Source: Novilysobacter antarcticus (GTDB lineage: Bacteria > Pseudomonadota > Gammaproteobacteria > Xanthomonadales > Xanthomonadaceae). Taken from it: 64,000 bases of DNA. How positions within the stretch are numbered: the stretch's first letter is position 1; every line of letters starts with the position of its first letter. Position numbers and translations under genes: made by a program. The notes beneath the pieces were generated by a model. The model did not search any database and was not told the DNA's origin. It worked only from the letters and a program-made list of their open reading frames with translations. Positions 421 to 2,240 of this stretch are shown here, piece after piece. The stretch lies in assembly GCF_019802285.1 (NCBI RefSeq), contig NZ_JAIEUJ010000002.1:62001-126000 (forward strand), written 5' to 3'.

Positions 421-1545
421 GTGACCCCTCCCTCCCGCCCCTCCACACCGCCCAGCAGCGTGACGCCGTCGCGCGATTCCCGCGGGCACGCCGACCCTGC
501 GGCGCTCGCACTGCGCATCCGTGAACTGGCCGCGGAATTCGGGTTCCAGCGCTGCGGCATCAGCGGCATCGAGCTGGGCGAGGACGAGGGGCATCTTCGC
601 GACTGGCTGGAAAAGGGCCTGTACGGGTCGATGGAATGGATGGCCCGTCACGGCGAGAAGCGCTCGCGCCCGGCCGAGCTCGTCCCCGGAACCTTGCGCG
701 TTGTGTCGGTGGGTCTGGATTACGGGCGCCGCGACGACACCGAGACGTGGCAGACTCTGGCCGATGGCGAGCGCGCCTATGTCGCCCGCTACGCCTTGGG
801 TCGCGACTACCACAAACTGATGCGCCAACGCCTGCAGAGGTTGGCCGACCGCGTCGCTGAACTGGTCGGGCCGTTCGGCCACCGCGTGTTCGTGGATTCC
901 GCCCCGGTGTTGGAGCGCGCGCTCGCCCGCAATGCCGGTCTGGGCTGGATCGGCAAGCACACCTGCCTGATCGACCGCGACGGCGGTTCTTGGTTCTTCC
1001 TCGGCGAGATCTACCTGGACCTGCCGCTGCCCGTCGACGAACCGGCCACGTCGCACTGCGGAACCTGTTCGCGCTGCATCGATGTCTGCCCGACGCAGGC
1101 GATCATCGCGCCCTACCGGCTTGATGCACGGCGGTGCATTTCGTACCTGACCATCGAGAACGACGGGCCGATCCCGCTGGAATTCCGCGAGCCGATCGGC
1201 AATCGGATCTTCGGCTGCGATGACTGCCAACTGGTGTGCCCGTGGAACAAGTTCGCCAAGCGCAGCGACGAGCCCGACTTTCGTGCCCGCAACAACCTGG
1301 ACGAGGCCAGTCTGGCGGACCTGTTCGCGTGGACGGAGGCGGAGTTCCTGGAACGAACCGAGGGCTCGGCGATCCGCCGCAGCGGGTATCGCCGCTGGCT
1401 GCGCAACATCGCCGTCGCACTTGGTAACGCACCTACAACCGCACAAGTGCTGACGGCACTGGAGTCACGTCAGGACATCGATGACGACCTCGTGCGCGAA
1501 CACGTGACGTGGGCATTGCAGCGCCATCGCGAGCGCGGCGGCTGA
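421..1545 (+). CDS. queG: Epoxyqueuosine reductase
   Basis: Catalyses the last step of queuosine synthesis, reducing epoxyqueuosine in tRNA with a cobalamin cofactor and two [4Fe-4S] clusters. Visible marks are the central GWIGKHTCLI segment, the ferredoxin-like cysteine cluster CGTCSRCIDVCP, the following RRCISYL cysteine and the second cluster FGCDDCQLVCPWNKF, in the order expected for the family. Length is 374 residues from GTG 421, close to the usual 350-380. Other in-frame starts are ATG 394, which would overlap nnr, and GTG 460; GTG 421 was chosen because of the -10 box just upstream. The C-terminal HEAT-like part (GYRRWLRNIAVALGN) is present. Confidence 0.95.
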   Translation: MTPPSRPSTPPSSVTPSRDSRGHADPAALALRIRELAAEFGFQRCGISGIELGEDEGHLRDWLEKGLYGSMEWMARHGEKRSRPAELVPGTLRVVSVGLDYGRRDDTETWQTLADGERAYVARYALGRDYHKLMRQRLQRLADRVAELVGPFGHRVFVDSAPVLERALARNAGLGWIGKHTCLIDRDGGSWFFLGEIYLDLPLPVDEPATSHCGTCSRCIDVCPTQAIIAPYRLDARRCISYLTIENDGPIPLEFREPIGNRIFGCDDCQLVCPWNKFAKRSDEPDFRARNNLDEASLADLFAWTEAEFLERTEGSAIRRSGYRRWLRNIAVALGNAPTTAQVLTALESRQDIDDDLVREHVTWALQRHRERGG

Positions 1546-1556
1546 GGTGAACGAGC

Positions 1557-1652
1557 GCGGTACCCGCAGACCTTCCGGGCGAATGTCCCCCGGCGCCCTC
1601 CTCCGGCGGGTACCTCCTCCTTTATTTCGCCCCGAAGGTCTACGGGTACCGC
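1557..1652 (-). repeat. Structured repeat copy A (long hairpin, conserved core)
   Basis: Arms 1557-1575 and 1634-1652 pair at 18 of 19 positions. Read on the minus strand the interior carries GAAATAAAGGAGGAGG (1628-1613) and GCCGGGGGACATTCGC (1594-1579). Both 16-base motifs occur identically in copy B, which lies in the opposite orientation. The single arm mismatch (C1567/A1642) would be a G-U pair in RNA read from the minus strand. I see no ORF in it. Confidence 0.75.
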
Positions 1653-1726
1653 TGCAAGATCGCACGCGTACGCAGGCAGCGAGCTCGCGGGTTTACGCTT
1701 CTACAACCACCGCGCGCTGCAACAAC

Positions 1727-1815
1727 GGGAGCGAATGCCGTTGGGGAGAAATAAAGGAGGAGGCACCGGCTGTATCGGTGCCGGGGGACATTCGCACCCA
1801 ATGGCACTCGCTCCC
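1727..1815 (+). repeat. Structured repeat copy B (inverted relative to copy A)
   Basis: Arms 1727-1745 and 1797-1815 pair at 18 of 19 positions, counting one G-U. The arm sequence is unrelated to that of copy A, but the interior holds the same two exact 16-base motifs (1748-1763 and 1780-1795). An inner 7-bp hairpin GGCACCG/CGGTGCC lies between them. Conserved core with different but still pairing arms points to selection on structure. Together the two copies fill most of the gap between queG and panD; between them (1653-1726) I see nothing recognisable. Confidence 0.75.
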
Positions 1816-1859
1816 GGTGCCCCGCCATCCCGGCGCATAACGCGACCGGATCGGAGGGA

Positions 1860-2240
1860 TCACGCCGCTTGGGCGGGGATCGAATCGTTGGTGTGGGTCA
1901 TCGCGTTTTCGGCATCGACGTAAACCAGGGTCGGCTTGAACTGCGCCGCCTGGGCTTCGTCGAACTGCGCATAGGCGCAGATAATCACCAGGTCGCCCGG
2001 CTTGGCGCAGTGCGCCGCGGCGCCGTTGACCGAGATGATTCCGCTGCCTTCCTCGGCGCGGATCGCGTAGGTCACGAAGCGATGGCCGGAGTTGATGTTG
2101 TAGATGTGGATCTGTTCGTATTCGCGAATGCCGGAAATGTCCAGAAGCCGGCCGTCAATCGCACACGAGCCTTCGTAATGCAGCTCGGCATGGGTGACGG
2201 TGGCCCGATGGATCTTGGCCTTGAGCAGGTTCAATTGCAT
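1860..2240 (-). CDS. panD: Aspartate 1-decarboxylase proenzyme
   Basis: Makes beta-alanine for pantothenate synthesis. The 126-residue protein starts [18 protein letters not shown] and has the self-cleavage site Gly24-Ser25 in YEGSCAID, where the pyruvoyl group forms. The segment [19 protein letters not shown] is the conserved body of the family. It is the last gene of the minus-strand pcnB-folK-panB-panC-panD run, about 96 bases after panC. Confidence 0.97.

Follow-up and report, generated by a model that had tools for sequence, protein, structure and literature searches.

Twin hairpins between queG and panD

The window analysed here is a stretch of 64,000 nucleotides from Novilysobacter antarcticus. 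Near its left end, queG and panD converge on a twin-hairpin element: the gap from the end of queG (1545, +) to panD (1860-2240, -) measures 314 bp and holds both hairpins, A and B. The parts of the locus are given below by coordinates, strand and identity.

469..1545, +: queG (tRNA epoxyqueuosine reductase), left neighbour; TIGR00276, 492 bits; start at 469 trimmed by hand from a longer open reading frame
1557..1652, -: hairpin A (type I end), from folding, motif matches and covariance model; 5' arm 1652-1629, purine core strand 1628-1613, then apical stem-loop, 3' core 1594-1579, 3' arm 1578-1557
1613..1628, -: GAAATAAAGGAGGAGG of A, whose GAA pairs with TTC of the 3' core
1579..1594, -: GCCGGGGGACATTCGC of A, 3' side of the conserved internal loop
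1653..1726, no strand: spacer between hairpins A and B, which in orthologs changes like the near flank
1727..1815, +: hairpin B (type II end), from folding and motif matches; 5' arm 1727-1747, purine core strand 1748-1763, then apical stem-loop, 3' core 1780-1795, 3' arm 1796-1815
1748..1763, +: GAAATAAAGGAGGAGG of B, exact motif match
1780..1795, +: GCCGGGGGACATTCGC of B, exact motif match
1860..2240, -: panD (aspartate 1-decarboxylase), right neighbour; TIGR00223, 154 bits

Beyond its GAA, GAAATAAAGGAGGAGG of A forms mostly the 5' side of the conserved internal loop. In the window's own genome, the covariance model matched hairpin A at G000:C2:63559-63650 (-) with 86.1 bits. The original prediction had reported two 16-mers common to A and B, and both are exact in both copies. 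With up to three mismatches allowed, GAAATAAAGGAGGAGG had 3 matches in the window versus a shuffle mean of 0.08; the loose count of GCCGGGGGACATTCGC (5 versus 2.58 by chance) is within chance, so that for this motif only its two exact copies carry weight. Folding energies of A and B lay below those of nearly all shuffles on both strands (z -4.5 to -7.1). The outer arms, described as completely different, are indeed unlike, with only 2 of 19 (5') and 3 of 19 (3') positions identical between A and B, although the difference is not complete. Likewise, pairing at 18 of 19 arm positions is correct for A in Watson-Crick terms and for B only if wobble is counted, as its 19-nt arms form 17 Watson-Crick pairs, one G-T and one A-C.

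The same gap varies among relatives. In G198, it carries another pair of inverted repeats, this one of GTAG-type hairpins (GTAGGAGCGGCTTCAGCCGCGA), which marks the gap as a landing place for unrelated repeats. G083, which is without the element here, has a 502-aa open reading frame between queG and panD (L212, 427-1935, -) that we take to resemble glucose-6-phosphate isomerase, and four other genomes of the genus have a similar queG-panD gap of ∼1.6 kb. At L183 and L184 (G133 and G169), the 3' arm of hairpin B is present twice, with an insert of ∼21 alignment columns, giving two candidate pairing partners.

A dispersed unit of two divergent hairpins

The search for copies across the window's family that had been proposed was run and found dispersed copies. 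The feature in the window is one copy of a dispersed non-coding unit of ∼230-270 bp, made of two divergent hairpins and a short spacer. Its own genome has 14 known loci of this unit; exact matches there number 14 for GAAATAAAGGAGG and 19 for GGGGGACATTCGC, versus none for the reversed controls. Neighbouring hairpins less than 400 bp apart were divergent, with their 5' arms facing, in 140 of 149 pairs, a set that includes orthologous loci of four species. Among 30 further loci from family f6, taken as Burkholderiaceae, 18 had a neighbouring hairpin (18/18 divergent), 11 were single and one, at a contig edge, had none. Hairpins of f6 had a median length of 92 nt and a GC content of 68.5%. In the window's genus, the two ends of the unit differ in their arms, type I resembling A and type II resembling B. 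A local duplication whose copies drifted apart, the alternative raised at the outset, does not fit, as A and B are the standard type I and type II ends and differ alike at other loci; their arms are unlike because A and B are two ends of one unit.

Two loci depart from this build. At L102 (4982-5687, a Comamonadaceae MAG), five hairpins lie within 700 bp, a local amplification; as a candidate autonomous version with a gene between its hairpins, this locus was rejected, being a run of five hairpins. At L206 (positions 1501 and 1643, G003), a variant pair has GTAAGTAAAGG...GACATGGAG in place of GAA/TTC, which suggests that there may be subfamilies missed by the strict pattern.

The strict pattern matched 17 of 198 genomes in the window's family (Lysobacteraceae) and four of nine in its genus, for which a BLAST search then gave a fifth carrier, G198. 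Together with the variant pair of G003, some form of the element is thus present in at least six of the ten genus genomes searched. Named contigs gave at least 117 stretches, mostly from Variovorax, Hydrogenophaga, Ramlibacter, Rhodoferax, Lysobacter and Stenotrophomonas. Matches were found in 6 of 398 genomes of a phylum sample and, with the covariance model, in 6 of 369 genomes of a class sample, where on reading the core was absent in two; G652 and G737, from two other families, were rejected as members and left uncounted because no core was seen in their model matches. In family f6, the model matched 151 of 349 genomes and 76 of 141 genera at E 0.001; at most 12 candidates were scored per genome, so per-genome counts are lower bounds. 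The core was present in 29 of 30 f6 loci that were read. Ten Variovorax genomes, picked as carriers, had 5 to 108 BLAST matches each (at least 43 in eight of the ten), these matches being pieces rather than copies. Three Variovorax plasmid records held the element. A viral origin was rejected: viral records gave one contig, with one hairpin, next to an open reading frame that presumably resembles an AMP-ligase.

Fold and folding strand

To describe the fold across the family, we compared pairing within and between hairpins. Arms of the same hairpin paired with a mean of -45.9 kcal/mol versus -22.0 kcal/mol for arms of different hairpins, and 252 of 270 hairpins lay below the 5th percentile. 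The covariation check proposed for the aligned copies was run on 52 hairpins, picked for diversity and good pairing. The 33-pair structure was formed in 92.8% of cells, compared with 59.9% after shuffling and 36-43% after sliding, and 30 of 33 stem pairs had changes on both sides; none of 500 shuffles came as high. Related sequences can exceed shuffles, and the slid control keeps relatedness. Even core letters that seemed fixed change together, as two of four G217 copies have GGC/GCC in place of GAA/TTC. The claim that changed but still pairing arms reflect a constraint on the fold is therefore borne out by covariation, by compensatory changes between orthologs and by an asymmetry of G-T over A-C, the latter two described below.

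The internal loop has RTMAAGGAGGA (RUMAAGGAGGA in RNA) on its 5' side and GGGGGACA on its 3' side and is nearly invariant, most of its positions being alike in at least 190 of 199 non-redundant hairpins; as the core served to find copies, conserved cores are favoured in this count. Of 227 hairpins, 107 have C(GNA)G as their apical loop, and one has its opposite-strand equivalent. C(GNA)G triloops are very stable in DNA. In the lower stem next to the core, a purine-purine mismatch is frequent in the named-contig set, which is mostly Comamonadaceae (G-A in 81 of 99 at arm position 5), and is absent in the Lysobacteraceae sets.

Mismatch types allowed us to ask which strand folds. As each G-T is an A-C on the opposite strand, a double-stranded DNA site cannot prefer one over the other, so that their ratio separates own-strand folding from double-strand DNA sites by genome sequence alone. 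Read on the purine strand, whole arms held 409 G-T versus 127 A-C pairs (166:95 in Lysobacteraceae and 243:32 in the others; 124 of 373 hairpins dropped as redundant). In the window's genus, A-C pairs are concentrated at position 1 and towards the far end of the stem (positions 24-27), which explains the weaker bias of whole arms. Arm positions 6-22, a range chosen after the position table was seen, had 327 G-T versus 29 A-C in 247 hairpins (2 of 249 dropped for short helices), with an excess in all five classes, and a fresh set of 42 f6 hairpins gave 72 versus 3. Two control sets from quick scripts served as yardsticks only: chance inverted repeats beside GTAG had 96 G-T versus 92 A-C, and T-tailed terminator-like hairpins, which act as RNA, had 38 versus 10. 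A structured operator, one of the readings originally offered, is unlikely, because a double-stranded DNA site would show no strand-specific wobble bias.

Elements lie mostly at gene 3' ends. In the window's genome, nine sites were convergent, five tandem and none divergent (14 loci); in G169, 12 were convergent, one tandem and two divergent among 15 classified, with four more left unclassified; on the named contigs, the numbers were 31, 50 and 7 among 88 classified elements (27 of 115 dropped as lying at an edge, without flanks or overlapping an open reading frame). Background gene pairs were 102 convergent, 372 tandem and 81 divergent of 555, all gene calls for context and neighbour direction coming from an ad hoc codon-usage script. 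The enrichment of convergent sites (9/14, 12/15 and 31/88 versus 102/555) is what would be expected if read-through RNA of the neighbours folded the hairpins, which then protected or ended the mRNA. However, the G-T:A-C ratio was 58:7 in hairpins antisense to both neighbours versus 56:3 in hairpins running with them, and changes in place gave G-U:A-C ratios of 22:2 and 9:1, respectively, a count that leaves out orthologous hairpins with low pairing. As the bias is the same antisense to the neighbours, their read-through does not explain it. Moreover, there was no intrinsic terminator (a stem followed by a T-run) at 1500-1900 of the window, and a simple stabilizer needs no nearly invariant internal loop. 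We thus regard a role as a 3'-end element served by the neighbours' transcripts as improbable.

The GGAGG in the core had been likened to a ribosome-binding site. It is nearly invariant across hairpins, but a translation start is unsupported: in the window copies it has no start codon at the normal distance, and most elements are located where genes end. The window's spacer gave no sigma-70-like promoter, a negative that carries little weight in GC-rich hosts. Either the hairpins are transcribed each on its own, or their own strand acts as single-stranded DNA, where G-T is also better tolerated than A-C as a mismatch. Overall, we favour a folded molecule of the hairpin's own strand, probably RNA.

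Constraint in place, probable mobility and possible function

To see how copies change in place, we compared orthologous hairpins among species. Between G000 and G133 (18 comparisons, 396 pairs), 32 changes were between Watson-Crick and G-U, 2 led to A-C and 15 to other mismatches, and 11 double changes kept Watson-Crick pairing versus 1.4 expected if the two sides were independent. The other five species pairs had 12, 1, 7, 10 and 16 double changes that kept pairing versus 0.4-1.5 expected; 14 of 146 comparisons were dropped from these pair counts for low pairing or shifted register. Across four species, 739 columns from 35 hairpins, a count that leaves out orthologous hairpins with low pairing, held 89 G-U, 12 A-C and 71 other-mismatch states, and 34 of these columns were compensatory. 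When the core was required in both species, it was 98% identical, followed by the apical part (92-95%) and the arms (86-92%), whereas the spacer reached 70-84% and the outer 60 nt 73-83%. When it was required in the reference species only, the contrast between core and flank was smaller: the core was 97-99% identical, the apical part 91-95%, the arms 87-93% and the flank, which lies 30-90 nt out and is partly coding, 85-91%. Here, as many as 10% of core sites failed to align. One complete hairpin only was left at 14 of 66 loci in the four species. The core therefore changes more slowly than the flank, and arm letters change at about the flank rate while preserving pairing.

Pairing kept by compensatory change, together with a slower core, is not expected of dead dispersed repeats. 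Some of the conservation could instead result from gene conversion between copies, which alone would not make the wobble bias. Template switching (quasipalindrome correction), which fixes imperfect palindromes with no selection on a fold, would make the arms of one hairpin match each other, but it predicts no bias towards G-T on one strand, whereas the ratio was 327:29, and it would not slow the change of a non-pairing core. A neutral repeat of this kind is very improbable.

Evidence for movement came from one Variovorax site. Here, the unit is filled in G590, G591 and G597 (L308, L313 and L314), G599 is without most of the left hairpin (L315, partial), G592, G593 and G595 have only a few bases (L309, L310 and L312, empty) and G594 has other sequence (L311). 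The neighbours of the unit in G590 are convergent, one open reading frame ending at 1953 (+) and the other at 2269 (-) of L288. The unit was thus inserted here or cleanly lost. No clear target duplication was seen in the Variovorax flanks, and inverted repeats were limited to the core motifs. At the G083 and G055 sites, no exact element ends could be read off, as the sites are too diverged. In the window's genus, copies are mostly old: for all 14 loci of G000, the loci fetched from G185 and G133 included orthologs that carry the element, as did those fetched from G169 for 13 of 14, and 2 of 19 G169 loci were without a counterpart. From the empty site and the patchy distribution we infer that past mobility spread the unit. 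The original reading of a hairpin mobile element survives, and the unit may be both RNA and mobile.

The suggested link to a transposase or reverse transcriptase was checked in part: no gene recurred in many loci and RAYT was not beside the hairpins. Among 117 contig loci, the largest cluster of open reading frames near copies (25 loci) consisted of the element's own frames, and the next clusters span 7, 6 and 5 loci. RAYT (PF01797) was absent in the carriers G000, G169, G185, G151, G082 and G402 and present in other carriers; the 5' core, with two mismatches allowed, was near none of 12 RAYT-like genes, two of which had just a single short 3' motif nearby. Nine of the ten Variovorax genomes G590-G599 have exactly one match to Y1_Tnp (RAYT-like) and G596 has two; the 5' core adjoined none of them. 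At L173 (3577-5104, a Burkholderiales MAG), two divergent hairpins 1.4 kb apart frame a 347-aa open reading frame, which matched nothing in Pfam, PADLOC or NCBIfam at E 0.01 and had no relative among the loci compared. This frame may belong to an ordinary gene or be what is left of an autonomous form; with neither a family match nor a relative, L173 is a lead and not a parent element.

Could the unit be purely mobile DNA? The hairpins would then be transposon ends for a putative enzyme that reads own-strand single-stranded DNA, the fold would be selected only when the element moves and there would be no host function. Such an element would account for the empty site, the many Variovorax copies, the patchy distribution within the genus, the strand bias that persists where flanking genes run the other way, the C(GNA)G loops (107/227) and the loss of a hairpin at some old loci. 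Yet most fetched copies of the genus are orthologous and still show constrained change in core and pairing, no gene is common to the surroundings of many copies and RAYT shows no linkage. We consider mobile DNA without host function possible, if somewhat unlikely.

Several known repeats share features with the unit. Like REPINs and BIMEs, it is intergenic and mobile, with two inverted hairpins (140/149 divergent). REPs are 20-40 bp long and carry a GTAG or CGTC tag, according to the parts of their descriptions at hand (PMC3733652, PMC3116915). The hairpins here differ from REPs in their length of ∼92 nt, a nearly invariant internal loop, free arms, the lack of a tag and of a link to RAYT. In alignment A1, with 22-nt arms, no arm column outside the core was invariant or nearly so, as a GTAG or CGTC tag at the hairpin foot would be, and the pair table held no family-wide tetramer to position 29. 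With no foot tag, and with RAYT absent in several carriers and not beside the hairpins, we rejected a REP or REPIN with RAYT. MITEs such as ERIC or Correia/NEMIS are non-coding, dispersed, structured and ∼100-260 bp long. The unit resembles them in being inserted and non-coding, with empty sites in relatives (one Variovorax site), but its ends share the loop motif rather than arm sequence, and neither a target duplication nor a parent transposon was seen. Its core is, we assume, unlike the R and L boxes of integron attC sites. All listed Rfam matches for window positions 1400-2000 and ten related loci were below the gathering score, and a search for the core motif letters in the open literature, a scope that subscription papers largely fall outside, gave no related paper.

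We propose a model in which the unit was spread by past mobility and many copies were later kept in place. In each hairpin, the strand with the purine core would act as a folded single-stranded molecule, likeliest an RNA of ∼90 nt, laid out as an outer stem of ∼25 bp of free sequence, an asymmetric internal loop and a short apical stem. The stems would hold the internal loop (RUMAAGGAGGA / GGGGGACA) open as the working part, and this loop would most likely bind a putative trans-acting protein or ribonucleoprotein. Judged from sequence patterns, a folded RNA of the hairpin's own strand, with stems that offer a fixed purine-rich loop to such a factor, seems to us evenly poised between right and wrong. 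The structured RNA of the original prediction survives too. The covarying fold, the own-strand bias, the slower core between orthologs, the divergent arrangement and one insertion site are seen directly, and RNA would be the form preferred over single-stranded DNA. That the molecule is RNA, that a factor binds it and that the host benefits would each follow only indirectly from these patterns. The fuller proposal is more tentative and, taken as a whole, rather doubtful: a widespread class of multicopy structured RNA in Burkholderiaceae and Lysobacteraceae, built of twin divergent ∼90-nt hairpins with the nearly invariant purine-rich loop and spread by transposition. Genomes would then retain dozens of working copies, every one of them transcribed in its own sense and bound by a conserved factor. 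As AAGGAGG complements the 3' end of 16S rRNA, the ribosome is one candidate partner of the loop, and a lead. The several GGA motifs in the loop might instead bind CsrA, the dispersed copies acting as a sink; CsrA was found in 13 of 13 genomes searched from the window's family, whether carriers or not. However, it had no match in the nine other carriers searched (six Variovorax and three f6), so we rejected CsrA as a common partner, and a CsrA sink is hardly credible.

Two further families are close by description. Bor-1 of Bordetella is an intergenic, structured stem-loop family with many copies and a model of 93-117 bp, in the portion of its account consulted (PMC2267715); by description only, our hairpins are likewise intergenic, structured, multicopy and of similar size. 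The beta-proteobacterial repeat element BRE is ∼90 bp long (75-91), usually intergenic and of 69.0% mean GC, with hosts in Bordetella and in Comamonadaceae including Rhodoferax; partial but conserved copies span ∼40-60 bp, and the element is described as tandem and VNTR-like, all from parts of one account (PMC3110155). BRE was found via the small RNA bprJ, seen by Northern blot as a transcript of ∼70 nt opposite to both neighbours (PMC3110155, in part), and bprJ is one of four small RNAs changed in an RNase III mutant, in the part of that report consulted (PMC8386462). Compared with BRE by description, our hairpins are alike in length (median 92 nt), GC (68.5%), host range and core size; unlike the tandem BRE, which we know by description only, they are paired and divergent and have copies in Xanthomonadales. 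As far as its consulted parts go, the BRE account (PMC3110155) describes neither a twin-hairpin architecture nor the internal loop, covarying stems, constraint between orthologs or copies in Lysobacteraceae. Whether BRE and the twin-hairpin family are the same is about even, on a comparison of descriptions. If they are, transcription of this family already has a precedent in bprJ. Should the working form be RNA, many environmental bacteria would carry dozens of copies per genome, together with a putative partner.
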